Below are positions 303 to 44,236 of a stretch of DNA of 64,000 nt, one piece after another. The notes under the pieces were generated by a model. That model was given only the letters and a program-made list of their open reading frames with translations, searched no databases and was not told the origin of the DNA. Position 1 is the first letter of the stretch. The number at the start of each line of letters is the position of its first letter. Source of the DNA: an uncultured Alphaproteobacteria bacterium (GTDB taxonomy: Bacteria > Pseudomonadota > Alphaproteobacteria > HIMB59 > GCA-002718135); contig CACHBB010000004.1 of assembly GCA_902577945.1 (NCBI GenBank), positions 1-64,000 on the forward strand, written 5' to 3'. A program made the position numbers and the translations under genes.

Positions 303-1370
303 TTATATTTTCTTAGCTACACTGATTTCTTTTATATCTGTAATTTTTGTATATCTATCTATCATCTGAGTAGTTTTATGTCCGCTCATTTTCATAATTT
401 CATGAGTTGGAACTCCATTCATTCTTGCTTGAGTTATAGATCCAATTCTTAAACTATGGCCTGATATTTTATCACATTCACTTAATCCAGCTTCTTTAGC
501 TCTTTTTTTTAAAATTAAAACAAAGCTTGTATCAGTTAAACTAATTTTTTTATTATTCTCATTAAGCTCATATTTTCGAATTGAATTAGCTTTATCAATA
601 CGATAGAAAAGGGGACCTGAGTTTACCATTGATATCTCTAGCCAATGATTTAGCGCTCTAACTGGACAATATAAAGCTTCTTCATCACTTTTTTTCTGTA
701 AATAAATTACCCTACCTTCACCTTTTTGATCAGTTTTAGAAAATGGTATCATTATTTGAATTCCTTCATTGTCATATTTTAGATGTTCATATTTCATGCC
801 TAGTAACTCTGATCTTCTACAAAAACTAAAATAACCTACTAAAATTAATGCTTTATCCCTTATATTTTTATAATCATCTGAATTATTAGGTATCAAATCT
901 ATTATCTGCTCAATATCTTTTCTAAGTAATTCCTTTGCTTGTCCTGCTTTATTATTTTTTTCATCTCTTACAATAGCGCTTATAGTTTCTGAAATGGCTG
1001 GGTTTTTTCTATCAAATTGAAATCCACCTAATCTATATTTATACGTTATTGAGGCTAATATTCTTTGTATTGTAGAAGCTTTATAAGCTGATGAAGAGTA
1101 GGGGTTATTATTTATATTTTCTCTTCCTGGTATATTGCTCAATCCTTTTAGAACTTTAGCTTCAGGATCTTCGTGTAACCAATGCATGTAGTTTGCAACA
1201 AGTGAATAAGCGCTATCTAAATCATCGACGTCTAGAGGTTCACATTTGTAATTATTTTTACAGTAATCTATAAATTTTAACCAATCTCCATTATATTTAT
1301 CTTTAGTGTTCTTGGCTTTAGATTTCTCTCTAAGTTTACTTACATTATCATTTATTGATATTTTAACCAT
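303..1370 (-). CDS. Tyrosine recombinase / phage-type integrase
   Basis: 355 residues, the usual length for the family. An N-terminal SAM-like core-binding domain (about residues 10-140) precedes the catalytic domain (about 150-350). Catalytic residues are visible in order: Arg185 in CRRSEL, a likely beta-hairpin Lys near 212-216, His305-x-x-Arg308 in GHSLRIG, His331 in SGHKTTQ and the nucleophile Tyr340 in DRYTKI. All family signature residues are present, so the enzyme is probably active in strand exchange. It is not an obvious XerC/XerD because it lies alone, outside the usual neighbourhood. Nine bases upstream of the ATG is a perfect 9-6-9 inverted repeat that could be its operator or core site. 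No tRNA or attL/attR pair is visible nearby, so its element, if any, is not delimited here. Confidence 0.9.
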   Translation of the reverse strand: MVKISINDNVSKLREKSKAKNTKDKYNGDWLKFIDYCKNNYKCEPLDVDDLDSAYSLVANYMHWLHEDPEAKVLKGLSNIPGRENINNNPYSSSAYKASTIQRILASITYKYRLGGFQFDRKNPAISETISAIVRDEKNNKAGQAKELLRKDIEQIIDLIPNNSDDYKNIRDKALILVGYFSFCRRSELLGMKYEHLKYDNEGIQIMIPFSKTDQKGEGRVIYLQKKSDEEALYCPVRALNHWLEISMVNSGPLFYRIDKANSIRKYELNENNKKISLTDTSFVLILKKRAKEAGLSECDKISGHSLRIGSITQARMNGVPTHEIMKMSGHKTTQMIDRYTKITDIKEISVAKKI

Positions 1371-1495: not shown

Positions 1496-1531
1496 TTCAC
1501 GTGTAATAAAATACTGTATATAGTGTATAAA
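1496..1531 (+). promoter_or_regulatory. Candidate promoter giving a leaderless sirtuin mRNA
   Basis: TTCACG (1496-1501), a 17-base spacer, then TATAGT (1519-1524) resembles a sigma70-type promoter. The ATG at 1532 lies 7 bases after the -10 box, where transcription would be expected to start, and there is no Shine-Dalgarno sequence. Match to consensus is partial, so this is a candidate only. Confidence 0.35.
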
Positions 1532-2257
1532 ATGGAACAATTACCGCAGATTTCAGCTGATTCCCAGATCTTTGTATTAACGGGTGCTGGTATAAGTAAA
1601 GAGTCTGGAATTGAAACATTTAGAGACTCAGATGGTTTATGGAATAATCACAGGATTGAAGATGTTGCTAGTCCGGAAGGATTCTATAGAAACCCTACTC
1701 TTGTCTACGATTTTTATAATAAACGTCGAAAAGAACTAAATTCAGGAATAAAGCCAAATAGGGCTCATATTTTACTACATGAATTAGAAAAAACATATAA
1801 AATTCATATAGTTACACAAAATATCGATAATTTACATGAAATTGGAGGATCATCATCAATTATTCATATGCATGGTGAACTCAATAAAGCTAGATGTATC
1901 ATGAATGAAAACCATGTATTTGATTGGTTAGAGGACCTAAATGAGACTCACAAATGTCCTGAATGTGGATCTCAAATGAGGCCTCATATTGTGTGGTTTG
2001 GTGAAATGCCAATGCAAATGGATGAAATTCATGATTTAGCAGAGCAATCTAGTCTATTTGTTTCAATAGGTACTTCTGGACAAGTCTACCCTGCTGCTGG
2101 TTTTGTTACGATGTTTAGAGATATGCGTAAACCAACAGTTGAATTAAATCTGGAACCATCAAGTAATCAAGAACAATTTGATTTTGCTATTCATAAACCT
2201 GCTACAGTTGCGGTTGAAGAATTTAAAAATTTACTTTTAAGCAATATAAAAAACTAA
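1532..2257 (+). CDS. cobB: NAD-dependent protein deacylase, Sir2 family (CobB type)
   Basis: About 241 residues from the ATG at 1532. An in-frame GTG at 1523 would add three residues, but it falls in the probable -10 region. Sirtuins remove acyl groups from lysines using NAD+. Rossmann and catalytic motifs are present: GAGISKESGIETFRD, QNIDNLH and HMHG with the catalytic His. The zinc site has one Cys in ARCIM followed by CPEC, the same reduced pattern as E. coli CobB, followed by RPHIVWFGE. The FYNKRR motif supplies the Tyr and Arg that bind acidic acyl groups in class III sirtuins (SIRT5/CobB), predicting desuccinylase as well as deacetylase activity. Divergent from the recombinase; probably monocistronic. 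Confidence 0.93.
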   Translation: MEQLPQISADSQIFVLTGAGISKESGIETFRDSDGLWNNHRIEDVASPEGFYRNPTLVYDFYNKRRKELNSGIKPNRAHILLHELEKTYKIHIVTQNIDNLHEIGGSSSIIHMHGELNKARCIMNENHVFDWLEDLNETHKCPECGSQMRPHIVWFGEMPMQMDEIHDLAEQSSLFVSIGTSGQVYPAAGFVTMFRDMRKPTVELNLEPSSNQEQFDFAIHKPATVAVEEFKNLLLSNIKN

Positions 2258-21036: not shown

Positions 21037-21121
21037 AAATTTTCAAGTAGGTTATATTTATTAAAATAATGTTAAGAAAAAAAAACTTTTTTAATTTTAT
21101 ATTCTTAGTAAAGTAATCATA

Positions 21122-22339: not shown

Positions 22340-22395
22340 TAATTAAAAGAAAATTTTAATAAAAAATTCATCAAAAAAGTATATTTTACGAAATT

Positions 22396-22830: not shown

Positions 22831-22858
22831 ATTTTTAATTATCTCTTAAAAAAAAATT

Positions 22859-25113: not shown

Positions 25114-25132
25114 AATATAAAATAAAAGGAAA

Positions 25133-25158
25133 TCAAAGCGAGCTTATACTCGCTTTGA
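25133..25158 (-). terminator. Intra-operon hairpin between phnD and phnE
   Basis: A perfect 10-bp stem (TCAAAGCGAG at 25133-25142 with CTCGCTTTGA at 25149-25158) and 6-base loop follow the phnD stop. On the transcript the stem is followed by a U-rich but interrupted tract (UUUCCUUUUAUUUU). It is best read as an attenuator or 3'-end stabiliser that raises binding protein over permease, as is common in ABC operons. Confidence 0.8.
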
Positions 25159-25170
25159 CACTTTAGAAGA

Positions 25171-26100
25171 TTAACCTCCAATTTTAGCTAATCTTGCAGC
25201 AACGATACCTTCGTAGAATGAATGATCAACGTCAACATATTGCTTAATTTCACCATAAGCTATATTTTTAGAACATTCTTTATCATTTGCATGAATCCAT
25301 TCTAATAAATTTCTCATATGTTCAATCATAGCGATTGGCAAATCAGTGCTTAATGATTGAGGGCCCTCAGGAATAAGTGAAGAAGACCATAATTGAACTA
25401 GATCATCCATATTAAGAATACCTTTATCAACCATTCTTCTTAAATTTCCATTTGAGTAACCTTCTTCCCATTTACCTACACCAGATACCCAAGTAAAAGA
25501 TGCATCAACATCGCCATTTAAAACGCCTAAGACTCCTGGCTCATGTCCACCCATAAAGTTAACTGATTCAAAGAAATCTTCATTAATACCCATACTTGCA
25601 AGTTCAGTAGATGGTATTAGAAAGCCAGATGTTGAATTCGGATCCGCATAACCTAATTTCTTTCCAGCCATATCTTCTAGGGATTTTAATCCAGAATCTT
25701 TTCTAGCTACTAAGACAGAATAATAACCAGTAGCTCCGGCGGGATTCATCCAAGTTGATATTGGTACGATTGCAGTAGGATCTTCAATATATACACCAGC
25801 GTAAGAAGAAGCTCCAAATCCTGCCATATCTAAGTTTCTACCAATTATTGATTGCATGGTACCAGCGTAATCTTTGAATGTAAAAATTTTTGCAGGTACA
25901 TTTAAAGATTCGGTTGCATAATCTGCAAAGCATTGTTGTAATCTAATTTGATCAGAGGCATTTTCACCTCCAAGTATTCCAATTCTAAAGTCTGGTCTAA
26001 ATTTACTTAGGTCAAACTTCGGCATTTCATGACCTCCGGCAAAAGAATTTGAAGAGATAAATAAGCCAAGCAAGACTGTAAATATAAATTTTCTAATCAT
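25171..26100 (-). CDS. phnD: Phosphonate-binding periplasmic protein PhnD
   Basis: 309 residues with a signal peptide (MIRKFIFTVLLGLFISSNSFA). The type II periplasmic-binding fold is recognisable from RIGILGGENASDQ, GFGASSYAGVYIED, MAGKKLGYADPNSTSGFLIPS (read with a break at NST) and the SFTWVSG segment, all characteristic of PhnD-type proteins. It captures phosphonates in the periplasm and delivers them to PhnE1/PhnE2/PhnC. A strong Shine-Dalgarno (AAAGGAGA, about 8 bases before the ATG) and a stable hairpin after the stop suggest it is the most highly expressed product of the operon. Confidence 0.95.
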   Translation of the reverse strand: MIRKFIFTVLLGLFISSNSFAGGHEMPKFDLSKFRPDFRIGILGGENASDQIRLQQCFADYATESLNVPAKIFTFKDYAGTMQSIIGRNLDMAGFGASSYAGVYIEDPTAIVPISTWMNPAGATGYYSVLVARKDSGLKSLEDMAGKKLGYADPNSTSGFLIPSTELASMGINEDFFESVNFMGGHEPGVLGVLNGDVDASFTWVSGVGKWEEGYSNGNLRRMVDKGILNMDDLVQLWSSSLIPEGPQSLSTDLPIAMIEHMRNLLEWIHANDKECSKNIAYGEIKQYVDVDHSFYEGIVAARLAKIGG

Positions 26101-26141
26101 ACGTTCTCCTTTAAATATTAGTAAAATTTAAGTTTAATTTA

Positions 26142-26966
26142 TCAATCAAGACCTTCCCCCTTTTTGTTACCAATTAGCCTTTCTTGATTATCACCCAAAG
26201 ACGTAGAGGTAATAGCGGCTTCAAAAGCTTCTTCAGCTTCGGCGCCGTAAATATCTCTTGCAGTTTCATCTTTAAGTAATTCAGGTTGGTCATCGAAAAC
26301 TATGTTTCCTGTTTTCATACCAATTATTCTGTCGCAATATTTTTTTGCTGTATCCAATGTATGTAAATTACATATAACCGTAATATTCTTTTCTTTATGT
26401 ATTTTTTGCAATGACTCCATTACTAATCTTGCATTATAGGGATCTAATGATGCTATGGGCTCATCAGCCAGAATCATGGAAGGGTTTTGCATTAAGGCTC
26501 TGCAAATAGCTACTCTTTGTTGTTGACCGCCTGAAAGAGTTTCCGCTCTTTGTAAAGCAGTTTCTGCCATTCCTAATTTATCAAGATTAATAAGAGCCTC
26601 TGTTCTCTCTTCTTTAGTAAAAAGTTTTAAAGAACTTTTAAAAAAACTTTGTTCATTTAACGTGCCTAGAATTACATTTGTCAAAACATCAAGTCTTGGA
26701 ATAAGATTAAATTGCTGAAAAATCATTGCACAATTTTTTTGCCATGCTCTTTTTTTATTTTTTTTAAAATCTAAAATATTTTCATCTTTAACTATAATTT
26801 TTCCACTAGTTGCATCCGTTAATCTATTAATGATTCTTAACATTGTAGATTTACCAGCCCCTGATCTTCCAATAATACCTATCATTTGAGGTTTATTGAT
26901 ATTTAAGGAAATGTTATTTACCGCTTTGTTGTCACCAAAATGTTTCGAAAGATTTATTATTTGCAT
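26142..26966 (-). CDS. phnC: Phosphonate ABC transporter ATP-binding protein PhnC
   Basis: 274 residues with all ATPase motifs: Walker A GRSGAGKST near residue 33-41, Q-loop IFQQFNLIPRLDV, signature LSGGQQQRVAICRAL, Walker B ILADEPIASLD and the H-loop in ICNLHTLD. QFNLIPRLDVLTNVILG is typical of PhnC among ABC proteins. It powers uptake through the two PhnE permeases. A C-terminal acidic tail (AEEAFEAA...) follows the standard fold. It is separated from phnD by 41 bases and lies 54 bases downstream of phnM. Confidence 0.95.
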   Translation of the reverse strand: MQIINLSKHFGDNKAVNNISLNINKPQMIGIIGRSGAGKSTMLRIINRLTDATSGKIIVKDENILDFKKNKKRAWQKNCAMIFQQFNLIPRLDVLTNVILGTLNEQSFFKSSLKLFTKEERTEALINLDKLGMAETALQRAETLSGGQQQRVAICRALMQNPSMILADEPIASLDPYNARLVMESLQKIHKEKNITVICNLHTLDTAKKYCDRIIGMKTGNIVFDDQPELLKDETARDIYGAEAEEAFEAAITSTSLGDNQERLIGNKKGEGLD

Positions 26967-27020
26967 AAAAAATAATTGGTAAATTATTTTTATTACAAAA
27001 AGGTTAATGTTATTTTACGA

Positions 27021-28157
27021 TTAGTTTACTCTTTTGCCTTTAATATAAACTTCTTTGATTAACGGTGTATTTTCTACAAAGGCAACTCTAAGAAAATCCG
27101 ATCTTTTATTAATTTCAATGTGACCCCTGTCATCTAAACCAACTGAATTTGCTGGATTATAAGAAACTAATTTAGTAGATTCACTTAAATTCACACCTTT
27201 ATGTAATAATTTAAATACAGATTGTATTAGACTCAAAGGAACATAATCAGATGAAAATATATCAACTAAATCAAAGTTGTTATCCACTAAATCATTTACC
27301 GAAACATTATCCGAGTGTGATTTATTTCTTATAAAATTTGGAGCACCTAAAACTGTTTTCATTTTGAGTTTTTTTGCTTGTTTAACAGCTTCTAAGGTAG
27401 TTGGAAATTCACTAATATAAATTCCATTTTTGCTTGCTTCATTTACATGTTCTTCTGTCGTATCATCGTGAGAAGCCATAATAATTTTTTTCTCTCTCCA
27501 TATTGTTGATACTTTTGGTCTATTCTTTTTTTCTGCTTCTTTTGCCGTTTCCTCTAGTCTTAACATTTTTTCATCAAAATCATATGCACCATGGGATGTA
27601 AAATTACTTCCTTTACCGTAAAATTCTAGCATTTTTTCTTTATTTCTCCATTGTCTCTGTCCAGGAGTATGATCCATTAAAGAAGCTAATGCTATATATT
27701 TGTTATCATAGTATTTTTCTAATGTTTCTAAGAGCTCAGGATCAGATAATTCACATCTATAGTGAAGATGGTGATCAGCTTTGAATAAACCTAAATCCTT
27801 ACCTCTGGTAATCGAAGTTATTATATCATCCAAAATACTTGTTCTAATTTTTGTATAGTTTCCAACTAATATTGCATCAAAAACCGTTGTTATACCAGAA
27901 GAAATAATTTCATTATCATTAGCTATTGCAGCTGCAATTTTATTAGGCCAAATTGCATTTGGTCTAGGAATAAAATGTTTTTCTAAGTTATCTGTATGAA
28001 GCTCTATAAATCCTGGTAATAAATAATCACCTTCAAAATCAATTGCATTAGAGTTATTTAAATTACCCTTATCAATGTTTAAAATTGTTTCATCAAAATT
28101 TATTGAGCCAATAAAAGTATCATTTAAAGTAACTATATTTGCATTTTTAATTATCAT
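27021..28157 (-). CDS. phnM: RPnTP hydrolase PhnM (C-P lyase pathway)
   Basis: 378 residues of the amidohydrolase superfamily. PhnM removes pyrophosphate from alpha-D-ribose-1-alkylphosphonate-5-triphosphate, giving the substrate for PhnJ. The metal-binding HTD in LPGFIELHTDNLEKHFIPRP (given as family-typical segment), KADHHLHYRCE, SLMDHTPGQRQ and MASHDDTTEEH supply the histidines and aspartates expected. The start overlaps the end of phnL by 11 bases, implying coupled translation. Confidence 0.95.
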   Translation of the reverse strand: MIIKNANIVTLNDTFIGSINFDETILNIDKGNLNNSNAIDFEGDYLLPGFIELHTDNLEKHFIPRPNAIWPNKIAAAIANDNEIISSGITTVFDAILVGNYTKIRTSILDDIITSITRGKDLGLFKADHHLHYRCELSDPELLETLEKYYDNKYIALASLMDHTPGQRQWRNKEKMLEFYGKGSNFTSHGAYDFDEKMLRLEETAKEAEKKNRPKVSTIWREKKIIMASHDDTTEEHVNEASKNGIYISEFPTTLEAVKQAKKLKMKTVLGAPNFIRNKSHSDNVSVNDLVDNNFDLVDIFSSDYVPLSLIQSVFKLLHKGVNLSESTKLVSYNPANSVGLDDRGHIEINKRSDFLRVAFVENTPLIKEVYIKGKRVN

Positions 28158-28842
28158 TTGGAATGTATTTTTCTAAATTAATTTCTCTTGTACATATTTC
28201 ATTTCTAATTTTTTTATCATGAACTATAACTATTATTGTTACATCTTTTTTAAGTTTTGATTTAATCATATCAATGACGATGGATTTATTAATATCATCG
28301 AGAGATGCTGTTGGCTCATCTAATAAAAGAATAGAATAATTCCCAATTAATGTTTTAGCTAAATTTACTCGTTGTTGTTCACCTCCAGAAAAAGTCAATG
28401 GTGATAAATTCCACATAGATTCTTGTATATTTAATTCAGATAAAAGTTTTTTTATTTTTATTAATGAGTGTTCATCAAATAAAGACTGTTGTTTTAGAGT
28501 ATCAGATACTATTTCAATTGTTGGAACCCTAGGCAAAACTCTTAAAAACTGACTTACATATCCAATGAAATATTTACGAAGATTTATTATTTGATGTTCT
28601 AATGAATTAGCAATATTGATTTTATTATTATTATAAATATTAATTTCACCTGAAGATGGTAAATAATTTCCATATAACATTTTTAAAAATGTAGATTTAC
28701 CAATTCCAGATTTTCCAACTAGCGCAATACATTCTCCTGTCTTTATTTCTAAATTAATATTTTTTAAAACATTTAATACGGTGCCCTTCTGATTATGCAG
28801 AATAAATTTCTTATTAACGTTTTTTAATTCGATAATTTTCAT
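28147..28842 (-). CDS. phnL: C-P lyase ATP-binding subunit PhnL
   Basis: 231 residues, ABC-ATPase fold: Walker A GKSGIGKST, Q-loop YVSQFLRVLPRVP, signature FSGGEQQRVNLAKTL and Walker B LLLDEPTASLD. The LRVLPRVP segment is distinctive of PhnL. Together with PhnK it is associated with the PhnGHIJ core rather than with transport, as established for E. coli. It begins two bases after the phnK stop. Confidence 0.94.
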   Translation of the reverse strand: MKIIELKNVNKKFILHNQKGTVLNVLKNINLEIKTGECIALVGKSGIGKSTFLKMLYGNYLPSSGEINIYNNNKINIANSLEHQIINLRKYFIGYVSQFLRVLPRVPTIEIVSDTLKQQSLFDEHSLIKIKKLLSELNIQESMWNLSPLTFSGGEQQRVNLAKTLIGNYSILLLDEPTASLDDINKSIVIDMIKSKLKKDVTIIVIVHDKKIRNEICTREINLEKYIPNDN

Positions 28843-28844
28843 TA

Positions 28845-29621
28845 TTAAACTTGTAAAATAGATGAAGTTAAAAGCTGTGTGTAGGAATGTTGAGGATCAT
28901 CCAAAACTCTATCTGTTAATCCTGTTTCTACAACTATGCCATCTTTCATAACCAATAATTTATCAGTTAAAAATCGCACAACTGCTAAATCGTGTGTTAC
29001 TATAATCATAGTAACATTAATATCTCTTACAATACTCTTAATAGTATCTAGTATTTTAGCTTGTACAGACACATCCAACCCCCCTGTTGGCTCATCCATA
29101 AACACTATCTGCGGGTTTGATGATAATATTTTTGATATTTGAAGTCTTTGCTGCATTCCGCCTGAAAAACTTAAAGGAAATTCATCAATTCTATCTGAAT
29201 CCATCTCAGTTTTTTCCATCCAATATTTTCCAGTATTTCTTAAAAATGAATAGTTTTTTTCAGATACATTGAGAAGTCTCTCTGCAATGTTACCTCCAGC
29301 ACTAATTCTTAAATTTAAACCATCTCTTGGATTTTGATGAACTATTCCCCACATGGATCTCATCAATTGTCTTTTTTCTTGTTCAGGTAGAGAAAGAAAG
29401 TCTTTTACACCCCCTTGATCTAGCGATATGTTAATTTTTCCTGCAGATGGAGAAATTTCTCCTGACAAGCACTTCAACAGTGTACTTTTACCTGAACCAG
29501 ATTCACCAACAATGCCTAAAATTTCACCTTTATACAAATCAAAATTTATACCTTTGCAACCAATTTGGTTTCCATAAAAATGTGTAAGGTTTTCCACATG
29601 CATTATTTTTTTAATATTCAT
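28845..29621 (-). CDS. phnK: C-P lyase ATP-binding subunit PhnK
   Basis: 258 residues, ABC-ATPase fold: Walker A GESGSGKST, Q-loop GIVHQNPRDGLNLRISAGGN, signature FSGGMQQRLQISKIL, Walker B IVFMDEPTGGLDVSVQAK and H-loop VTHDLAVVRF. The HQNPRDGL and GLDVSVQA patterns match PhnK, which docks onto the PhnGHIJ core. Its start codon overlaps the phnJ stop by four bases. Confidence 0.94.
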   Translation of the reverse strand: MNIKKIMHVENLTHFYGNQIGCKGINFDLYKGEILGIVGESGSGKSTLLKCLSGEISPSAGKINISLDQGGVKDFLSLPEQEKRQLMRSMWGIVHQNPRDGLNLRISAGGNIAERLLNVSEKNYSFLRNTGKYWMEKTEMDSDRIDEFPLSFSGGMQQRLQISKILSSNPQIVFMDEPTGGLDVSVQAKILDTIKSIVRDINVTMIIVTHDLAVVRFLTDKLLVMKDGIVVETGLTDRVLDDPQHSYTQLLTSSILQV

Positions 29622-30454
29622 TTATTTTTCTCAAGATTGCTTTTACAAAAATCTGTATCTGAACATATAAAATTTTTCTTTCCCTCATTATTGATAATTA
29701 TTTCATCTAAGTAACTCTTCGTTGAACCACATATTGAACAACATTCATCCCATGTTTGTATTTCAAAGGGATGATCATCAAAATCAAGACTTTTAACTTT
29801 AGTGTAAGGTGGAATTGCGTAAATTCTTTTTTCTCTTCCTGCGCCAAATAATTGCAACGCTTCCATATTATTCATTTTGGGATTATCAAATTTAGGTATT
29901 GGTGTTGGATCAGTAATATATCTGTTATTTGTTTCTACTGGATAAGCCCAAGTTTTTATTACTGAGCCAAATTGAGAAATTTCTTCGTATAATTTTACAT
30001 GCATTAATGCATATTCTTTATACGCATGGAGTTTTCTAGTTTCTTTTTCTTTAGGCTCTAATTTCCTTAGTGGTTCTGGTTGAGGAACTTGATAAACAAT
30101 GATTTGATCTTTATTTAATGTTGTTTCAGGAATTCGATGTCTAGTTTGTATCAAGGATGCTTCTGCAGTTCTATCTGTAGTCATGATATTGCATACACGT
30201 TTAAAAAAATTTTTAATAGAAACAGCATTAGTAGTATCATCAGCACCCTGATCAATTACTTTTAGAATATCTTGCTTACCAATTATAGAAGCTGTAACCT
30301 GGATACCTCCTGTTCCCCATCCATATGCTAATGGCATTTCTCTTCCTCCAAATGGACATTGATAGCCTGGAATGCAAACAGCTTTTAGAATTTTTCTCCT
30401 TATCATTCTTTTAGTTGCTTCATCCAAATACGCAAAATTAAAACCAGTTTTCAT
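29618..30454 (-). CDS. phnJ: Radical-SAM C-P lyase PhnJ
   Basis: 278 residues. PhnJ homolytically cleaves the carbon-phosphorus bond, releasing the alkane (methane from methylphosphonate). The cysteine signature C-x2-C-x21-C-x5-C is intact: Cys239, Cys242, Cys264 and Cys270, the first three being the [4Fe-4S] ligands and the last the thiyl-radical cysteine by analogy with E. coli. FGGREMPLAYGWGTGG (about 35-50) contains the glycine-rich segment that hosts the glycyl residue. It overlaps phnI and phnK by four bases each. The complete motif predicts an active enzyme. Confidence 0.97.
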   Translation of the reverse strand: MKTGFNFAYLDEATKRMIRRKILKAVCIPGYQCPFGGREMPLAYGWGTGGIQVTASIIGKQDILKVIDQGADDTTNAVSIKNFFKRVCNIMTTDRTAEASLIQTRHRIPETTLNKDQIIVYQVPQPEPLRKLEPKEKETRKLHAYKEYALMHVKLYEEISQFGSVIKTWAYPVETNNRYITDPTPIPKFDNPKMNNMEALQLFGAGREKRIYAIPPYTKVKSLDFDDHPFEIQTWDECCSICGSTKSYLDEIIINNEGKKNFICSDTDFCKSNLEKNK

Positions 30455-31539
30455 AATTTTTTTCCCTGCAGAATTTCATTTCTAAGTTTTCGAATAAGGT
30501 TTAGTTCTCCTTGAAAGTCAACATAATGAGGAAGTTTTAGATGTGTTACAAATCCTTGTGCCTCAACATTGTCAGCATGATAGAGAACAAATTCTTGATC
30601 TTGAATTGGGAATTTGATTTCTTCACCGTACCCTTCACTCTTTAATGCTCTATCCACAATAGAAATAGCCATGGATTTTCTTTCATTATAGCCAAATGTT
30701 AAACCATAACCTCTCGTAAATTGGGGCGGGGTATTTTTATTTCCTGCAAATTGATCTATCATTTGACATTCAGAGATTTCAATTTCGCCAATACAAATTT
30801 CAAAACCTAATTCATCTGGTGAAATAAAAATATCAACAATACCGTATTTAATTTCTCCAACAAAAGGATGAGTTCCTTTACTTCCAAATCCCCTAATAGC
30901 AGAATAAGATAAACCTAGAAGAAAACCCTCATCACCCCTAGCTAGTATTTGCATCCATTGATCTCTGGATGCAGGAAATTTCATAGGATCTCTCGTAACA
31001 TCAAATGGATTATCATTTAAATTGTTAATTTCCTGCTCTAATAAATTCTCATTATTAAGATAATCAATAACACTAGGAAATTCTTTATTTTTAGGTTCTT
31101 GGTTATTGATGTTTTCATATGAATTTATCTCATCTTCTTTCATTAGAGAAAAATCTAATAATCTGTGAGAATAATCAAATGTTGGGCCAAGTATTTGTCC
31201 GCCCGGTATATCTTTAAAACTTGCAGATATTCTTCTTTTTATAATAATTTTGCTTGTATCTATAGCAGTTGAGTAAGCATATCTTTCTAAAGTGGTTCTA
31301 TAAGCTCTCAATAAAAAAATTGCCTCGACCAAATCTCCTTGAGATTGTTTTATTGCTAAAGCAGATAAATCTTTATCATATAATGAACCTTCATTAATTA
31401 CTCTATCAACTGCAAAACTTAGTTGTTCTTTAATTTGATTTATCTCAATACTTTTAGTGCCAGTTTCTTTTCTTTTTTTCTCTAAAAGTTTCAATGAGCT
31501 TTTGATTGCTTTTTCCCCTCCTTTTACTGCTACATACAT
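30451..31539 (-). CDS. phnI: C-P lyase nucleosidase subunit PhnI
   Basis: 362 residues, the expected length. PhnI, with PhnG, PhnH and PhnL, displaces adenine of ATP with phosphonate to give the ribose-1-phosphonate triphosphate. Conserved segments are MYVAVKGGEKAI at the N-terminus, RISASFKDIPGGQILGPTFDYSHRLLDF, GSKGTHPFVGEIKYG, ISECQMIDQF and YGLTFGYNERKSMAISIVDRAL. It overlaps phnJ by four bases and phnH by one base. Confidence 0.96.
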   Translation of the reverse strand: MYVAVKGGEKAIKSSLKLLEKKRKETGTKSIEINQIKEQLSFAVDRVINEGSLYDKDLSALAIKQSQGDLVEAIFLLRAYRTTLERYAYSTAIDTSKIIIKRRISASFKDIPGGQILGPTFDYSHRLLDFSLMKEDEINSYENINNQEPKNKEFPSVIDYLNNENLLEQEINNLNDNPFDVTRDPMKFPASRDQWMQILARGDEGFLLGLSYSAIRGFGSKGTHPFVGEIKYGIVDIFISPDELGFEICIGEIEISECQMIDQFAGNKNTPPQFTRGYGLTFGYNERKSMAISIVDRALKSEGYGEEIKFPIQDQEFVLYHADNVEAQGFVTHLKLPHYVDFQGELNLIRKLRNEILQGKKL

Positions 31540-32111
31540 TATTTTAACACCTTTGATGTTCGTGGCAGACAGAAAAAATCATCTTTACACGTAAGAATTA
31601 AGTCGACACCTCTTGGAAAAATAAAATTATTATTTTGCCATTGAGATTGAAAATTTTTAGGTAAATTAGTTGGGGATATTGATTTTGTTTTTTCAATACC
31701 AGGACCTTCAATTATTAATTCTTCACCGTTAATCAGATCTTCAACTTCAATAATTATCGTGGATGAGTTGTCAGGATATTCATCTGAGCCAAGATTAAAA
31801 TTTTCAATATTAAATTCCTTATTTTGAATAATTGCAAAGTCACAATGATTAGATTTTTCTATACAATTTGCATTTGTGTTGAATGTTATAAAGTTTTGTA
31901 TTTTTGATATCTTTTCAGAATCTATAAAAATTTTAGTATCAATATCAAATAACGTAAAAATAATATTAGCTGTTGAAGAATAAAGAACATTATCTGTTTC
32001 AAGATTTTCTGGAACTGTGAATATAGATCCAGGAAAAGAGGTTGCTTTTAAAATTGTTCTAAACATATTTTGTGATGAATGTGTTTGATCTTGATATCCA
32101 ATATATTCCAT
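31539..32111 (-). CDS. phnH: C-P lyase core subunit PhnH
   Basis: 190 residues, typical length. PhnH is a non-catalytic core subunit with a PLP-transferase-like fold without the cofactor. Recognisable segments are the N-terminal QNMFRTILKATSFPGSI (the family has a similar FR.....SRPG motif), the central LGSDEYPDNSSTIIIEV and the C-terminal IFPRGVDLILTC..FFCLPRTSKV. Start and stop overlap its neighbours by one base, so the phnGHI block is translationally coupled. Confidence 0.93.
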   Translation of the reverse strand: MEYIGYQDQTHSSQNMFRTILKATSFPGSIFTVPENLETDNVLYSSTANIIFTLFDIDTKIFIDSEKISKIQNFITFNTNANCIEKSNHCDFAIIQNKEFNIENFNLGSDEYPDNSSTIIIEVEDLINGEELIIEGPGIEKTKSISPTNLPKNFQSQWQNNNFIFPRGVDLILTCKDDFFCLPRTSKVLK

Positions 32112-32551
32112 TATCCATCACCTCTCACTAGTGTAAAGAAATCAACTTTTGATGAGTTACTTTCATTAATAATGTGATTTTCTTTTTTATTAATTTTATC
32201 TTTTAAATCTAAAATCATACTTTGAAGTTTAGAATAATAATTATTATCTTGCATTAAAGCATCTAAAACTGCTGCATACTCAGCTCTAATTTTATCTCTA
32301 CCTAGATGATACGAATAACCAGTTGTTCCTTCTTCTAATTTTATGACACATTTAGTTAATGTTGCTTCGCCTAGATTATAAGGATCTCCATTACCTCCTA
32401 ATCTTGCCCTTATCATGATCGACCCAACATTTGGTCCGTAAATTATTTTATAATCTTTAGTATAATTTATATTTTCAATACAATTTTTTAAATCTATTGT
32501 TTCTGTTTTTGACAAAATAGAAATCCAATCTTTTCTTTGTATTTCAGACAT
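32111..32551 (-). CDS. phnG: C-P lyase core subunit PhnG
   Basis: 146 residues. RLGGNGDPYNLGEATLTKC and YSYHLGRDKIRAEYAAVLDAL match the conserved parts of PhnG. It forms the centre of the core complex with PhnI. As the first phn gene of the operon it is preceded by only two bases by the stop of a small secreted ORF, and no phnF-type GntR repressor is present. Confidence 0.93.
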   Translation of the reverse strand: MSEIQRKDWISILSKTETIDLKNCIENINYTKDYKIIYGPNVGSIMIRARLGGNGDPYNLGEATLTKCVIKLEEGTTGYSYHLGRDKIRAEYAAVLDALMQDNNYYSKLQSMILDLKDKINKKENHIINESNSSKVDFFTLVRGDG

Positions 32552-32552
32552 T

Positions 32553-32801
32553 TTATTTTGCTCTTAAATCTTGATTTGAACTTGAAAATGAACCAAGAGG
32601 AGTAATAATATTTCTTTTGTTATGTTCATTAAAAGTACTTATTAAATCTAAATGTTGAAGAGACTCACATAATTGATCATCTGTTAGTTGCTCAGCTTTA
32701 ATATTATTCGTCACTAAATCAGTAAGTAATTTATTTACTTCATTTGATTTAGCATGAATTAAAGAAGGGAATATTAAAAGAAAAAATAAAAAAAGTTTCA
32801 T
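32553..32801 (-). CDS. Small secreted protein heading the C-P lyase operon
   Basis: 82 residues with a signal peptide (MKLFLFFLLIFPSLIHA, cut before KSNEV). The mature part is helical with a single cysteine (DQLCESLQHLDLIS). I do not recognise the family. It sits one base upstream of phnG in the same direction, so it should be the first cistron of the phn transcript and may serve phosphonate acquisition in the periplasm (inference). Confidence 0.65.
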   Translation of the reverse strand: MKLFLFFLLIFPSLIHAKSNEVNKLLTDLVTNNIKAEQLTDDQLCESLQHLDLISTFNEHNKRNIITPLGSFSSSNQDLRAK

Positions 32802-34152: not shown

Positions 34153-34422
34153 ATGAAAATTATTATGAATGTTAAATTAAAAGAAGGTTATGAAAAATGG
34201 AAAAATCTTTTTCTCAGTGTCGATACACATAGAGAAAAGTATGGAATAAAAGTTTTAGCATATGGCCATCCAAAAGATAATGAAAATAAAATTTATCAAG
34301 TTTTAGAGATTGAATCGATGGAAAAAATGCAAGAAGCAATGAAAGATCCAGAATTAGCAAAACTTAGAACTGAGGCTGGTGTTGATTTGGATAGTCAAGA
34401 AATTGTTTTTTTAGTTGAGTAG
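34153..34422 (+). CDS. ABM-like dimeric alpha/beta-barrel small protein
   Basis: 89 residues. The beta-alpha-beta-beta-alpha-beta order (MKIIMNVKLK / GYEKWKNLFLSVDTHREKYG / IKVLAYGHPKDNENKIYQVLEIES / MEKMQEAMKDPELAKLRTEAG / EIVFLVE) fits antibiotic-biosynthesis-monooxygenase-like or related ferredoxin-fold proteins. The function is unknown. The last codons (LDSQEIVFLVE) recur as a decayed copy at 36205-36240. It lies 60 bases upstream of the AlkB-like gene. Confidence 0.65.
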   Translation: MKIIMNVKLKEGYEKWKNLFLSVDTHREKYGIKVLAYGHPKDNENKIYQVLEIESMEKMQEAMKDPELAKLRTEAGVDLDSQEIVFLVE

Positions 34423-34467
34423 GTTTTAATTTTATAGAAAAAGATACGGTATGAATTAAATATAATT

Positions 34468-34498
34468 AAAGACTTCTTCACTATGGAAGCTTTTTTTT
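34468..34498 (+). promoter_or_regulatory. Hairpin with U-tract overlapping the alkB start codon
   Basis: AAAG-A-CTTC (34468-34476) pairs with GAAG-CTTT (34486-34493) with one bulged A, leaving a 9-base loop (TTCACTATG) that contains the alkB ATG, and is followed by a run of T to 34498. It could be a weak terminator for the upstream three-gene cluster or a translation-controlling element of alkB. A related hairpin precedes the 2-oxoglutarate oxygenase at 36310. Confidence 0.45.
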
Positions 34499-35526
34499 AT
34501 ATTATTATTTTAATATTAATGATTTTTTATCTTGTAACACCGCTGATATTGATTTTTTCAAGCTCTTTAGGCTTAATTATTGACCCTTTCTGGTCTATTT
34601 CACCATTTGTTTGGGTATTTATTCTAGTTCCCATTATTGATTTAGTTTTACCTTATTTAAATAAGCAAGATGTCGATTTAGAAGAAAATATATTCCATAA
34701 TTTTTCTATTTTGATTGTTCTTCCTTGTATTTTATTTCTAATAATTTTTGGTTTAATTGTTGTATCTAATCCTTCAATAACATTTTTAACTGCTGCTGCT
34801 TTAGGTGCAGCTGTTGGTATGTCAGGTGGTTCAATTGGTATTACAACAGCCCATGAGCTAATTCATCGACAAAATAAATATATGCGAGGTATTGGTGTGT
34901 TATTATTAATTGTATGTTGCTATGGTCATTTTCGCATAGAGCATATTTATGGTCATCACCGAAATGTTGCTACTAAAGAAGATCCAGCTACTGCTAGAAG
35001 AGGTGAAAATTTTTATTTTTATTTTGTTCGCTGTGTTATTAATAGTGTCATCTCTTCATGGAATATTGAAAAAAATATACTTTTAAAAAGAAATATAAAT
35101 TTATTAAATATTCGAAACAGAATGTTGCATTATTTCGTATTAGAATTTTTATTTTTAATAATTTCTTTTTATATTGCTGGTATAAATGGACTAGTATTTG
35201 TTTTGTTTCACTCTTTTATTTCAATACTATTACTTGAGCTTGTTAATTACATTCAACATTATGGTTTAGAAAGAAAAATGGAAAATGGTAAATATGAAAA
35301 ATTTACTGATCATCACTCATGGAATAGTCGTCATATATCCGCTAACTGGTCTACATTCAATTTAGGCCTGCATGCAGAACACCATCATAGAGCATCAAAA
35401 CACTATCCTCTTTTATCACAAGAAGAAAAATCAGTAGAAATGCCTGCCAACTATTCCATAATGTTAATAATGGCTTTAATTCCACCTTTATGGTTTTTTG
35501 TAATGGATAAAAAAATACATAATTAA
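34483..35526 (+). CDS. alkB: AlkB-type membrane di-iron hydroxylase
   Basis: 347 residues with six or so TM helices. The eight-histidine pattern of AlkB is intact: HELIH (124-128), EHIYGHHRNVAT (153-164), NYIQHYG (255-261) and LHAEHHHR (296-303). Members hydroxylate the terminal carbon of alkanes or related alkyl chains using a rubredoxin for electrons. No rubredoxin or rubredoxin reductase gene lies in the window. It is shorter than typical AlkB (~400), mainly at the ends. The ATG at 34483 lies in a hairpin loop and has no Shine-Dalgarno; ATG at 34519 (residue 13) is an alternative, though it would shorten the first helix. Substrate inferred, not proven. Confidence 0.85.
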   Translation: MEAFFYIIILILMIFYLVTPLILIFSSSLGLIIDPFWSISPFVWVFILVPIIDLVLPYLNKQDVDLEENIFHNFSILIVLPCILFLIIFGLIVVSNPSITFLTAAALGAAVGMSGGSIGITTAHELIHRQNKYMRGIGVLLLIVCCYGHFRIEHIYGHHRNVATKEDPATARRGENFYFYFVRCVINSVISSWNIEKNILLKRNINLLNIRNRMLHYFVLEFLFLIISFYIAGINGLVFVLFHSFISILLLELVNYIQHYGLERKMENGKYEKFTDHHSWNSRHISANWSTFNLGLHAEHHHRASKHYPLLSQEEKSVEMPANYSIMLIMALIPPLWFFVMDKKIHN

Positions 35527-35550: not shown

Positions 35551-35575
35551 GCGGGAAATTAATCCCGCTTTTATT
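35551..35575. terminator. Bidirectional rho-independent terminator
   Basis: GCGGGA (35551-35556), loop AATTAA, TCCCGC (35563-35568), then TTTTATTTT. It ends the alkB transcript, and with the AT-rich left flank it also serves the convergent 4-TM gene. Confidence 0.85.
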
Positions 35576-35614
35576 TTAATTAAAACAAGCGGCTATTAAA
35601 ACGTTTGATATATA

Positions 35615-36046
35615 TTAATACCCCTCAAATATTGTTCTAATAATAATTAAAATTAATCCAACTAATGGGAACATAACTCCTCTAATATTAGGAGTAATTC
35701 CATAATTATTTACAAGATTAAAGTACCTAACTAATGAACTAATTAAAGCTATTGCAAAAAGCATAAATAAAAATGAATACCAAAACTTATATTGTACTAC
35801 ATTTTCTTCATAAGTATTCCCAGTAACATCAAAAGTTAATAATATTGACATTAATAACATTGTTAAAAAAACAGCACCTAAAGGGCCTCTAAAAACTAAC
35901 TTGGGTTCTTCATTTGAAAAACCTAATTCATTAAAAAATTTATTATTAAAATAAAACTGATAAATAATAAATAAATTAAAAAGCATAAATAAAACATGGA
36001 ATGTAAATGCCATTGTTCCTCCAGCCTCTAAAATATATTGGGCCAT
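35615..36046 (-). CDS. Small 4-TM membrane protein next to alkB (family member 1)
   Basis: 143 residues with four hydrophobic segments (about 12-32, 53-71, 87-105, 121-138). It is homologous to the protein at 48996-49397: both start EAGG/ETAGG, continue F..HV, share NKxF...GF and RGPLG/GRPLG before TM2, and end with P.I..IIRxxF/Y. I do not recognise a named family. A strong Shine-Dalgarno (AAAGGAGA) precedes it, unlike most genes here. It shares a terminator with alkB, and its paralogue follows a Rieske oxygenase, so a role linked to iron oxygenases (anchor, electron path or substrate entry) is a testable inference. Confidence 0.75.
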   Translation of the reverse strand: MAQYILEAGGTMAFTFHVLFMLFNLFIIYQFYFNNKFFNELGFSNEEPKLVFRGPLGAVFLTMLLMSILLTFDVTGNTYEENVVQYKFWYSFLFMLFAIALISSLVRYFNLVNNYGITPNIRGVMFPLVGLILIIIRTIFEGY

Positions 36047-36204
36047 AAAATCTCCTTTTTTAAAATAATTATAAAATTAATGATGATTCTTAATAAAAAA
36101 CTATTAAAAAATTATGAATAAAAATATTTTAATCTAATTTAATTGCTGTTGAGAGTTATACTCTAGTTTTTGTACAGAAATTTCTAAATTTTCTATTAAA
36201 TCAT

Positions 36205-36240
36205 TTAGATAGCCAAGAAATAGTTTTTTTAGTTGAGTAG
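36205..36240 (+). pseudogene. Relic of the ABM-like gene: last 11 codons plus stop
   Basis: Encodes LDSQEIVFLVE and TAG. By my alignment it matches the 3' end of the intact gene (34387-34422) at 33 of 36 bases, and all differences are synonymous. In-frame sequence upstream of it no longer resembles the intact gene. The similarity extends weakly into the following leader (…TATAATTAAA). It marks an old duplication that joined this region to the 2-oxoglutarate oxygenase gene. Confidence 0.8.
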
Positions 36241-36271
36241 ATTATAATTAAAAAATAGAATATAATTAAAC

Positions 36272-36309
36272 GGGGTATAAAGCCCTCTCCACTGAGGGAG
36301 TTTTGCCCC
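36272..36309 (+). promoter_or_regulatory. Nested hairpin abutting the start codon of the 2OG oxygenase gene
   Basis: GGGG (36272-36275) can pair with CCCC (36306-36309), enclosing AA/UU pairs and an inner stem CCCTC (36283-36287) with GAGGG (36294-36298) around loop TCCACT. The ATG follows immediately at 36310, with no room for a Shine-Dalgarno and no T-tract. The sequence AAAG-stem-CTYCACT-stem resembles the alkB start hairpin. It is a candidate translational control element; it does not match a riboswitch I can identify. Confidence 0.5.
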
Positions 36310-37170
36310 ATGATAAATATGAAAATACAAGAAGAAAATATTAGTTATTTTATTAATCTTGATAAATTTCCTATACACGAACCTCAAAGTTCAAAATATC
36401 AAACAATTGTAAAAGAAGCACGTGAAGCACTAGATTATGATGGTTGCTATGTTTTGAAATCCATTGTTAATTCAAATGCAATTAAAGATATGCAACATGA
36501 AGCATCAAGTATTGAGAGTTTTGCGCATTATACATCTAATAAAGTAAATGTTTACTTTAGTAAGGATGATCCATCGTATCCTAAAGACCATCCACGTCGT
36601 TTTTTTATGGAAAGAAGTAACGGATTTGTTTCAGGTGATAAATTTCCAGAAAAATCCAAGATAAAAGATTTATATTATTCTGAAATACTAAAAAACTTTA
36701 TTGCAGATTGTTTGGAAGTAAAAATGTATCACTATGCTGATCCTTTAGCTTCGCTAACAATAAATGTAAATAAACCAGGTGATCGTTTTTCTTGGCATTA
36801 CGATACAAATGAATTTACTGTCACTATGCTTGTGCAAGATTGTGATAAAGGAGGTATATTTCAATACGTACCAAGTATTAGAAATAAAGATGATGAATGT
36901 TATGATGAAGTTCAAAAACTTCTTCATGGAGATACCTCAAAGATAAAAGAAATAAAACTTAATGAAGGTGATCTTCAATTATTTAAGGGTCGCTATGCAC
37001 TTCACCGAGCAACTAGAGCAGAAGGAAATAAAACAAGAAATTTAGTTGTATTCACATACACTGAAAAAGAAAACGTTATTGGCTCTACTTATAGAACAGA
37101 AGAGCTCTACGGCAAAACTCTTGACGTTCATAAACAGACAAAAGTTAGAAGTGATAATTTAACAGATTAA
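36310..37170 (+). CDS. Fe(II)/2-oxoglutarate-dependent oxygenase
   Basis: 286 residues. The iron facial triad is visible as His163-Tyr-Asp165 in FSWHYDTNEFTVTM and His232 in YALHRAT; Arg243 in KTRNLVVFTY is the likely 2-oxoglutarate anchor. The pattern WHYD...GGIFQYVP...GDLQLFKGR..LHR resembles 2OG oxygenases acting on small molecules, such as amino-acid hydroxylases of the HalD/BesE-like group. Substrate unknown. An ATG at 36319 (Met4) is an alternative start. The next gene, a beta-hydroxyacid dehydrogenase, begins 4 bases after its stop, suggesting that a hydroxylated product is then oxidised by NAD(P). Confidence 0.8.
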   Translation: MINMKIQEENISYFINLDKFPIHEPQSSKYQTIVKEAREALDYDGCYVLKSIVNSNAIKDMQHEASSIESFAHYTSNKVNVYFSKDDPSYPKDHPRRFFMERSNGFVSGDKFPEKSKIKDLYYSEILKNFIADCLEVKMYHYADPLASLTINVNKPGDRFSWHYDTNEFTVTMLVQDCDKGGIFQYVPSIRNKDDECYDEVQKLLHGDTSKIKEIKLNEGDLQLFKGRYALHRATRAEGNKTRNLVVFTYTEKENVIGSTYRTEELYGKTLDVHKQTKVRSDNLTD

Positions 37171-38439: not shown

Positions 38440-39375
38440 TTAAGTTCTAAGTGTTGTTTTAGCAACAACTAAAGATTTTTTTCTATTTTCTCTAAAGACT
38501 ATATATATACCACTTGCAACAATAAGAATGATACCAATAAAAGAATAAAAATCTGGCAATTCATCAAAAATAAAAAAACCTAAAATTACCGCAAAAATTA
38601 AATGAACATATTCTGCAGGTGCATTTATTAATGGAGACCCTACTCTATAAGCTGCAATTAAAGACATAATGCCTAAACTTCCTAAAACTCCAATGAATAA
38701 AATAAAGATAACGGTTTGAATGTCATTAAGGATCCAGGGATTATTTAAATTATCAAGAATATTAAAATTTATATCTGAGTTATATATCAAAGCACTAATT
38801 AAAGTTCCTCCAATAAATGAACCTATATAAATATGAAAAGTCTGTTGAAATAACGAATCTTTATCAGAAGTCTTTTTCGCTAATGTCATGGACAGAGCAT
38901 AACTGAACGCTGTAATAATAGGAAATATCATATAGATATTTATATTTGTGAAATCAGGCTTAATAATTAGCAGTGTTCCAGAGAAACCAACGATAATACT
39001 AAATATTCTATTCATACCTATTTCATTTTTTAAAATTAAATAAGAGAATATTGTAATAAAAAAAGGACTAACAAAAAATAAGGCTGTTGCTTCAGCAAGG
39101 CCAATTTTACTTAATGAAATAAAAAATAATAAAAAACCAAAAAAAAATGATATGCCTCTAAAGACAGCAACATAAGGATATGCAGAACTAAAGACAATAT
39201 TCTGTTTTGTATAAAGTAAATAAAAAATTAAAATTAAAGATCCTACTGTTGCTCTGAAAGATAGTATTTGAAGCAATGACAGATCATTAACTGTTAACTT
39301 TATTAAAGTATCGTGGACAATGAACAACAACATTCCAAATATAATCAGTATTAATCCTTTAATATTGTTATTCAT
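38440..39375 (-). CDS. EamA/DMT-family transporter
   Basis: 311 residues with ten hydrophobic segments arranged as two EamA repeats (about 5-135 and 145-295). SFRATVGSLILIFYLL, AEATALFFVSPFFITIFSYLILKNEI and PAEYVHLIFAVILGFFIFDELP are family-typical. Substrate unknown (DMT proteins usually export metabolites such as amino acids). It converges with the SMR-like gene, leaving 2 bases between stops, and is divergent from the ion-channel gene. Confidence 0.85.
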   Translation of the reverse strand: MNNNIKGLILIIFGMLLFIVHDTLIKLTVNDLSLLQILSFRATVGSLILIFYLLYTKQNIVFSSAYPYVAVFRGISFFFGFLLFFISLSKIGLAEATALFFVSPFFITIFSYLILKNEIGMNRIFSIIVGFSGTLLIIKPDFTNINIYMIFPIITAFSYALSMTLAKKTSDKDSLFQQTFHIYIGSFIGGTLISALIYNSDINFNILDNLNNPWILNDIQTVIFILFIGVLGSLGIMSLIAAYRVGSPLINAPAEYVHLIFAVILGFFIFDELPDFYSFIGIILIVASGIYIVFRENRKKSLVVAKTTLRT

Positions 39376-39433
39376 TAAATAAGGTATTAATACTATTTTT
39401 GTTTTAGAATAAACAAAAAATGGATTTTATAAG

Positions 39434-40120
39434 GTGATAGATTTTTTTTCTAAATTGCGAGATAACCGAATTTTTCAATTTACTGTTGTAATCATTATAA
39501 TTCTCAATGCAGTATTAATTGGAGCAACTACCTATGAATTAGAACCTTTATTTTTAAATTTCATTCATCTTCTTGATTATGCAATCACAATTTTTTTTGT
39601 TATTGAAATTTTGATACGATTTATAGGAGAAAAGGAGAAAAAAAACTTCTTTAAAGATGGTTGGAATGTATTTGATACAATTATAGTAGCTATATCACTT
39701 ATCCCTATACCAAATAATTCTAGCTACTTAGTTTTGAGATTGCTAAGAATATTTAGAGTATTAAGGTTAATTTCAGTTATTCCAGAGCTAAAAAAGATTA
39801 TTGAAGCAATTCTAGCATCAATAAAAAGAGTTTTTTACGTTAGTCTTCTTCTTTTTATAATACTGTATATTTACGCAACTATGGGCTCAATCTTATTTGG
39901 TGAAGATGATCCTGAAAGATGGGCAGATCTTGGTATTTCTCTAATAACACTTTTTCAGGTATTAACATTATCTAGCTGGGAAAATGTAATGTTACCTATG
40001 CAAGCAATTTATTGGTGGTCGTGGATTTATTTCTTTAGTTTTATAACAATATGCTCAATTACGATTTTAAATTTAGTAATTGCCATTCTGGTAGACGTTG
40101 TAAATCATCAAAAAAATTAA
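39434..40120 (+). CDS. Single-domain voltage-gated cation channel
   Basis: 228 residues with six TM helices, starting at GTG (AAGGTG). S4 carries four arginines at three-residue spacing (LRLLRIFRVLRLI, Arg102/105/108/111). The pore is LFQVLTLSSWENVM (174-186). In NaChBac-type sodium channels the filter is TLESW; here the glutamate position is Ser180 and a glutamate appears one residue after Trp (Glu183), so ion selectivity is uncertain. S6 ends with LNLVIAILVDVV, and the usual C-terminal coiled coil is nearly absent. It should act as a homotetramer in the inner membrane. The bactofilin gene follows 91 bases downstream. Confidence 0.85.
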   Translation: MIDFFSKLRDNRIFQFTVVIIIILNAVLIGATTYELEPLFLNFIHLLDYAITIFFVIEILIRFIGEKEKKNFFKDGWNVFDTIIVAISLIPIPNNSSYLVLRLLRIFRVLRLISVIPELKKIIEAILASIKRVFYVSLLLFIILYIYATMGSILFGEDDPERWADLGISLITLFQVLTLSSWENVMLPMQAIYWWSWIYFFSFITICSITILNLVIAILVDVVNHQKN

Positions 40121-42529: not shown

Positions 42530-44236
42530 TTAGTACATAAAATAACGTTGCGCTAAAGGCAATGTTTTAGCTGGTTCACATGTAATTAACTCACCATCAG
42601 CTACTACTTCATAAGTCTCTGGATTAACTTCTATATTTGGGCAATAATCGTTTAAAATCATATCCTTCTTAGAAATTTTTCTAATATTTTTAACGGGTAA
42701 TAAAGATTTACTAATTCCAGAATTTTCAAATGAATTTTTTTCTAAAGATGCTTTACTCACGAAAGTCGCAGTAGATTTTTCTAATGATTTTCCAAATGAA
42801 GAGAACATTGGTCGTGAATACACTGGTTGTGGTGTTGGAATTGAAGCATTTGGATCACCCATTTGTGCACAAGAAATATTCCCACCTTGCAAGATTATTT
42901 CAGGTTTAACACCAAAGAACGCTGTGTCCCAAATAACAATATCCGCGCGTTTATTTTTTTCTATACTCCCAATATGATCAGAAATACCGTGAGCTATTGC
43001 AGGATTGATTGTATATTTAGCAATATATCTTTTTACACGAAAATTATCATTATCACCTTGCTCTTCTTTTAGTTTTCCACGTTGCACTTTCATTTTATGC
43101 GCGGTTTGCCATGTTCTAATAATAACTTCACCAACACGACCCATGGCTTGACTATCAGAAGCAATAATTGAAAAAGCACCCATGTCATGCAGTATATCTT
43201 CTGCGGCAATTGTTTCTTTTCGAATTCGACTTTCAGCAAATGCCACATCTTCAGGTATTGATTTATCTAGATGATGACAAACCATCAACATATCTAAATG
43301 CTCTTCAATTGTATTAACCGTATATGGTCTTGTTGGATTTGTAGATGATGGAATAACATATTCTTCACCACAAACTTTAATTATATCTGGTGCATGACCT
43401 CCACCAGCTCCTTCAGTATGAAAAGCATGAATTGTTCTTCCATTAATGGCTTTAATTGTACTCTCAACAAATCCACTTTCATTTAATGTATCTGTATGAA
43501 TCATTACTTGAATGTCATTATCATCAGCTACATTTAAACAATTATCTATTGCAGCTGGAGTTGTGCCCCAATCTTCATGTAATTTTAGTGAAGATGCACC
43601 AGCAATTACTTGTTCTTCAAGAGCTTGAGGCAATGAACTATTTCCTTTTCCCGCAAATGCCAAGTTCATTGAAAATGCATCTGCAGATTGTATCATTTTT
43701 TCTATATGCCACGGTCCAGGAGTAACTGTTGTTGCTAATGTACCATGTGCTGGACCTGTCCCCCCTCCTAACATTGTTGTGATACCTGAGTGAAGAGAGT
43801 CATCAATTTGCTGAGGACAAATAAAATGAATATGACTATCAAATCCTCCAGCTGTTATAATTTTTCCTTCTCCTGCAATTATTTCTGTTCCAGGTCCAAT
43901 AATAATATTTACATTTGGTTGTGTATCAGGATTACCAGCATTTCCAATTTCGTTAATTAATCCATCTTTAAGACCAATGTCGGCTTTGTAAATTCCATTT
44001 ACATCAACAATTAAAGCATTGGTTATAACAGTATCAACCGCACCCTCTTGACGAGATACTTGAGATTGACCCATTCCATCTCGAATAACTTTTCCTCCGC
44101 CAAATTTTACTTCCTCTCCATATGTTGTTAAATCTTTTTCTACTTCAATAAAAAGTTCTGTGTCAGCAAGTCTGACTTTATCTCCAGTTGTTGGTCCATA
44201 CATATCTGCATATGCGTTTCTATCTATTTTTTTCAT
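42530..44236 (-). CDS. ureC: Urease alpha subunit UreC
   Basis: 568 residues, full length. All bi-nickel ligands are visible: His135 and His137 (SHIHF), carbamylated Lys218 (SSLKLHED), His247 (MIHTDTL), His273 ([11 protein letters not shown]) and Asp361 ([10 protein letters not shown]). The mobile flap Cys320-His321 (MVCHHLDKS) is intact. The enzyme hydrolyses urea to ammonia and carbamate in the cytoplasm. Start overlaps the ureB stop by one base. No urtABCDE transporter lies in the window. Confidence 0.98.

Follow-up and report, generated by a model that had tools for sequence, protein, structure and literature searches.

A mosaic junction in a hypervariable island

The window (the whole 64,000-nucleotide stretch analysed) comes from a genus that we take to be the AEGEAN-169 / SAR11 subclade V group, and it holds a hypervariable island whose gene content between the two edges differs in nearly every genome (Table 1). 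On the minus strand, a single open reading frame of 5534 aa (3387-19991), uncommonly large given that the genome assembly is 1.2 Mb, carries many Calx-beta-like repeats together with an apparent subtilase region and apparent outer-membrane end. A phosphonate uptake and C-P lyase-like operon at 20122-32551 lies within the variable island, and the 5' stub of a gene that reaches 730 aa in G069 (L152) is found at 32553-32801 (minus strand), another truncated island-junction gene. In the urease region, positions 43797-44082 (plus strand) match the Rfam family 5_ureB_sRNA at 100 bits, a match that is probably due to conservation of the urease genes at coding level and not to an sRNA. The HalD-like gene may start at the ATG at 36319, and its orthologues occur in 10 genomes. 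Halogenases of the HalD group are not known to have the aspartate that is present in the WHYD motif of this protein; therefore, judged from the motif, a hydroxylase is more likely than a halogenase.

Table 1 Positions of genes, mosaic pieces, promoter motifs and hairpins in the window
Feature	Position	Strand	Remarks
XerD-like tyrosine recombinase, left island edge	303..1370	-	Pfam PF00589, 1.2e-15
Sirtuin-like gene (F16), left island edge	1523..2257	+	
ABM-like small gene, intact	34153..34422	+	89 aa; weak DUF3764 match; last 36 bases form the left repeat copy
Hairpin copy, probably decayed, between ABM and alkB	34461..34498	+	Now terminator-like (stem and T8); aligns in register with the intact hairpin
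alkB-like gene, fatty acid desaturase fold	34519..35526	+	Pfam PF00487, 1.3e-29
Mosaic piece 1, with small membrane-protein gene (35615-36046, minus strand)	35572..36144		86% identity over 574 nt; the match in G028 is inverted and ~8 kb away from the hairpin
Mosaic piece 2, remnant of the 3' end of the F44 gene family	36141..36205	-	80% identity: 65 nt aligned with G063 and G049, 56 nt with G070
Mosaic piece 3a, ABM 3' tail remnant	36203..36240	+	LDSQEIVFLVE and stop
-35 element TAGATT (putative)	36238..36243	+	Overlaps the ABM stop codon TAG; 17-bp spacer
-10 element TATAAT (putative)	36261..36266	+	Separated from the hairpin by 5 nt; offset also kept where the upstream modules are unrelated
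Conserved hairpin, 38 nt, proposed small structured RNA	36272..36309	+	GGGGTATAAAGCCCTCTCCACTGAGGGAGTTTTGCCCC
HalD-like Fe(II)/2-oxoglutarate oxygenase gene	36310..37170	+	Pfam HalD PF23169, 2.6e-17
EamA-like transporter (minus) and ion-channel gene (plus), right island edge	38440..40120		

The 3'-terminal 36 bases of the ABM-like gene recur upstream of the HalD-like gene, as a preliminary description of this DNA had stated: 36205-36240 matches 34387-34422 at 33 of 36 positions, and the three differences (TTG/TTA, AGT/AGC and ATT/ATA) are each synonymous. In a whole-genome search, this pairing (E 1.4e-11) is the only significant second match, with the next at E 0.05. The relic is identical at 35 of 36 positions to the ABM gene tails of sister genomes G047 and G013, which have its letters at two of the three differing sites; at those two, therefore, it was the intact gene that changed. 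An AT-rich stretch and then a hairpin come after each copy, again as described, but the TATAATTAAA that was said to end both stretches lies 38 nt past the stop codon in one case (34461) and 20 nt past it in the other (36261). Once the two regions are aligned, the former falls inside the decayed hairpin and the latter is the -10 box, so the two occurrences do not constitute one shared feature.

The relic had also been taken for the leftover of a second ABM copy, and the sister genomes bear this out, with an intact ABM gene directly left of the hairpin at ~30 loci, ending 27-47 nt (usually 31 nt) before it. The absence of ABM at this place in the window is therefore local and recent. Positions 35572-36311 form a mosaic of three pieces that are placed or ordered otherwise in sister genomes: the F44 3' end normally lies at +45 to +109 to the right of the hairpin (G063, G049 and G070), and 36203-36311 corresponds to the ABM tail, spacer and hairpin of ~35 genomes at 80-87% identity. 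Judged from these alignments, the ABM tail remnant is recombination debris of one exchange. ABM has been lost separately in G065, where just AGTAGATT and the promoter motif are left, and it is degenerate in G018; in both genomes, as in the window, the hairpin persists without it. The hairpin probably outlives halD too, since what stands behind it in G023 is a decayed halD-like start.

Conservation and covariation of the hairpin

The hairpin at 36272-36309 consists of 16-bp imperfect inverted arms separated by a 6-bp spacer. A covariance model finds it in 64 of the 102 genomes of the genus, one copy in each apart from two genomes that hold two, and in none of 60 other genomes of the order. A pattern search allowing at most 3 mismatches detects it in 49 of 151 relatives, which belong to a single genus, and a reversed-pattern control never matched in the same 151; of the first 49 copies, 38 have the same sequence. 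In the GTDB collection, 52 contigs also carry it, and the titles of all 52 are those of similar alphaproteobacterial genomes. Genomes of the genus that lack the hairpin fall into two groups, one in which the contig ends before the locus (G041, G052, G014, G076, G042 and probably G024), and a subclade in which the flanking marker is 72-74% identical and the neighbourhood different, or the marker was not found. Where the F2 marker is at least 79% identical, the hairpin is present at every assembled locus. The outcome that the preliminary description named as refuting, no relic in relatives or a leader that differs in all of them, was not observed: the leader hairpin is near-identical in relatives, but its neighbours are not.

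At 36272-36309, Rfam 15 has no family at gathering score and none up to E 5. The exact-type pattern has 0 matches in viral contigs, and the 15 matches obtained there with a loose pattern have no matching stem and were taken as chance. The sole match outside the genus in a class-wide model search falls within a coding gene resembling alaS, weak model matches in another small-genome order are apparently in coding genes, and weak matches to model R2 elsewhere in the genus (16-19 bits) were taken as noise. An earlier description of the hairpin was not found in the literature searched, which covered few subscription journals.

An alignment of 15 hairpin variants, with one loop insertion and one deletion, shows both sides changed in 6 of 13 stem pairs (14 cells), while 96.4% of cells are paired. 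The stem occurs as CCCTC/GAGGG, TCCGC/GCGGA, TCAGC/GCTGA and TCTCC/GGAGA. Similarly, RNAalifold reports 6 pairs with compensatory change. None of 500 shuffles reaches this covariation and no slid register comes near it, figures that are weakened by a control set that is not phylogenetically independent. The comparison of G056 with G082 is unaffected by this weakness: the flanks of the two agree at 39 of 40 positions on the left and 51 of 52 on the right, and the hairpin differs at four bases that make up two compensated pairs. The internal loop, with GTATAAAG on one strand and (A)AGTTTTG on the other, is invariant in 14 of the 15 variants, the exception being G054 at the AG of the second strand, and the apical loop is also mostly conserved. 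The hairpin thus has the helix-preserving compensatory base changes by which a structured RNA is recognised, a pattern which argues that its structure is under selection.

Promoter motif and additional copies

A sigma-70 promoter belonging to the hairpin itself may be read, at the level of motifs, at 36238-36266. In ABM-type loci the -35 is TAGATT or TAGATA, formed in part by the ABM stop codon and followed by a 17-bp spacer, and it is retained in G065, where the remaining ABM is lost. A similar -10 precedes hairpins with unrelated upstream sequences, including the ABM tail, two kinds of alkB tail, a MacA-type promoter region and a gene of G004. It stands at a fixed offset in 8 of 11 representatives against 4.4% at background positions, with the offset picked post hoc and several of the representatives homologous. 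A generic promoter scan found promoter-like sites not to be in excess in this AT-rich stretch.

The preliminary description spoke of a duplicated leader. The two hairpins are indeed probably related, but they are very unequal. With model R1, the alkB-side hairpin scores 15.1 bits in G013, 12.7 in G047 and 7.1 in the window, always at the same spot, and converting the E-value of the G013 match to that place alone gives ~1e-5 by rough arithmetic. Its folding (the hairpin at 34470) has z = -0.6 relative to shuffles, compared with -4.2 for the hairpin at 36272. The weak alkB-side hairpin and the strong one are probably homologous, the former having decayed. The frame of an alkB start at 34483 is closed in G047, and the ATG at 34519 is therefore the likelier start.

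Two recognisable copies exist only in G038 and G007, where they form direct repeats 5.2 kb apart that flank the same block, F11-F28-F19-F24 (L121 7081-12336 and L149 9000-14255, hairpin-oriented). In both genomes the second copy is of type C and intact, and the lowest score of its stem type belongs to the first copy, with 57.5 and 57.9 bits for these original copies compared with 58-67.7 for the stem type; single-copy G075 (58.0 bits) and G071 (58.8) score nearly as low, and the two-copy sample is two genomes. Decay of extra copies would fit action in trans, for which one copy suffices wherever it lies. At L138, L142, L152, L153, L164, L197, L198 and L203, ABM is followed by a conserved terminator, TTGAGGGTAATAATTATTTTGCCCTCAATTTT, that is like the lower stem of the G006 hairpin. 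The idea that this terminator after ABM in MacA-type loci is a hairpin without its upper stem is suggestive only against the G006 form, and was not used.

A candidate small RNA gene and its alternatives

The orientation of neighbouring genes was counted at 64 loci (65 rows including the window). The hairpin lies between convergent genes at 41 of them, between a left gene that points away and a right gene that points in at 14, between divergent genes at four (the window, G071, G086 and G072) and between co-directional genes at four, the left gene being cut off where the contig stops in one. At 55 of the 64 loci the gene on the right runs convergently towards the hairpin and stops 6-130 nt short of it, leaving nothing downstream to control. 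It is accordingly improbable that the hairpin is a cis-acting leader or riboswitch for the following gene, even though halD starts 0-8 nt after it in the window, G062 and G047 and a small multidrug-type transporter gene lies 13 nt past it in G054. Several halD orthologues (in G004, G025, G050, G019, G034 and G031) are not adjacent to a hairpin, and as a general role the leader is refuted, since a co-directional downstream gene is not consistently present. As such, the earlier proposal that selection has acted on the DNA after the remnant stands, in that promoter motif and hairpin are kept, but its corollary that a leader was retained to control a different oxygenase does not agree with this orientation or with conservation of the hairpin across 64 genomes.

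An unusual transcription terminator, or a stabiliser of mRNA 3' ends, between convergent genes would suit stop codons that often lie 6-35 nt from the hairpin, the T7 run that follows it in G054 and the resemblance of the decayed copy before alkB to a plain terminator. We regard this as quite unlikely, because a T-run is usually absent on both sides, the divergent neighbours in the window, G071, G086 and G072 leave nothing to end, and simple terminators elsewhere in the island lack such sequence conservation; a terminator scan did not pick up the hairpin. A leader needs a co-directional right gene and a terminator needs an incoming gene; neither is general, and therefore neither reading holds generally. 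It is likewise doubtful that the hairpin is an att- or dif-like DNA site for the island tyrosine recombinase, although left and right modules are combined freely, a XerD-like recombinase stands at the island edge and the two-copy genomes have direct repeats 5.2 kb apart. A crossover at the spacer would be expected to combine arms of different stem types, whereas the arms of types A, B and C remain matched (with G069 as a possible exception) even though the types have flanks in common, so that exchange would take place outside the hairpin or the hairpin would be carried whole. A recombinase site also leaves the putative promoter, the conserved asymmetric internal loop and the tolerated G-U pairs unexplained.

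The hairpin is kept while its neighbours are swapped or lost, which makes a small RNA likelier than a switch for the adjoining oxygenase. What had been described as the leader of a second oxygenase is, on sequence grounds, most likely a small RNA gene in its own right within a recombining island. Specifically, we put a probability of about 0.6 on 36272-36309 being a single-copy gene for a small structured non-coding RNA that has its own promoter and likely acts in trans. The hairpin would form the body of an RNA transcribed from the promoter at 36238-36266, with the ABM stop codon of the remnant supplying the -35, and a probable protein partner would read the nearly invariant internal loop GUAUAAAG / AAGUUUUG between two covarying stems. 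Since the apical loop is mostly conserved too, base-pairing with an mRNA instead of protein binding is possible. A constant terminator that would set the 3' end of the RNA was not found after the hairpin. Recombination would swap the neighbouring genes in the island while promoter and hairpin stay, and halD would be a passenger that begins immediately after the RNA in three genomes, where it may be served by the same promoter. More tentatively, and at somewhat less than even odds, the hairpin would belong to a novel class of hairpin RNAs that act in trans and are strongly selected to remain single-copy; in this hypervariable island of an abundant uncultured marine lineage it would be the sole fixed element among replaceable genes, its extra copies decaying once one intact copy is secured.

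The small RNA gene would be a near-invariant element of abundant, streamlined ocean bacteria that has been missed by standard annotation and Rfam. Persistence of the hairpin amid gene turnover offers a clean test of the role that a non-coding element has within such a flexible island, and a protein partner could be sought with the nearly invariant internal loop as a concrete bait. A gene-tail remnant can also mimic a selected leader when the adjoining RNA gene is the selected unit.

In small RNAs that overlap a 3' UTR and have their own promoter, the promoter overlaps the end of the upstream gene. The putative promoter here would overlap in the same way, but the hairpin persists where the upstream gene is lost or replaced. 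By analogy, the nearest published kind appears to be the rhtB-associated element of Candidatus Pelagibacter, a bulged hairpin without an assigned function that has two conserved stem portions, covariation and a conserved loop (Meyer et al. 2009, PMC2704228). Both are single bulged hairpins with conserved stems and loop and with covariation in marine Alphaproteobacteria (SAR11-type for the rhtB element). Compared by description only, the context of the rhtB element (rhtB, proC and liv genes) is largely conserved and a U-tract follows about half of its copies (PMC2704228), whereas here the context is variable and such a tract is rare. The SAR11_0636 element has widely varying neighbours, from which its authors infer a separately transcribed RNA (PMC2704228). 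The hairpin resembles it in the variation of neighbouring genes, but SAR11_0636 is a three-stem junction without covariation-supported pairs, and an Rfam scan of the region gave no match to it. Sites of the attC and dif kinds are likewise imperfect inverted repeats in recombining regions; attC occurs once per cassette, however, and the hairpin once per genome, with a putative promoter and matched arms. The hairpin does not resemble the XerCD dif consensus, and TGTATAAAAAATATTATGTTAAAT, a recurrent site in the genus, is the better candidate for dif. This candidate dif, or a one-base variant of it, is present in many genomes of the genus, for example at G018:C5:41163-41186.
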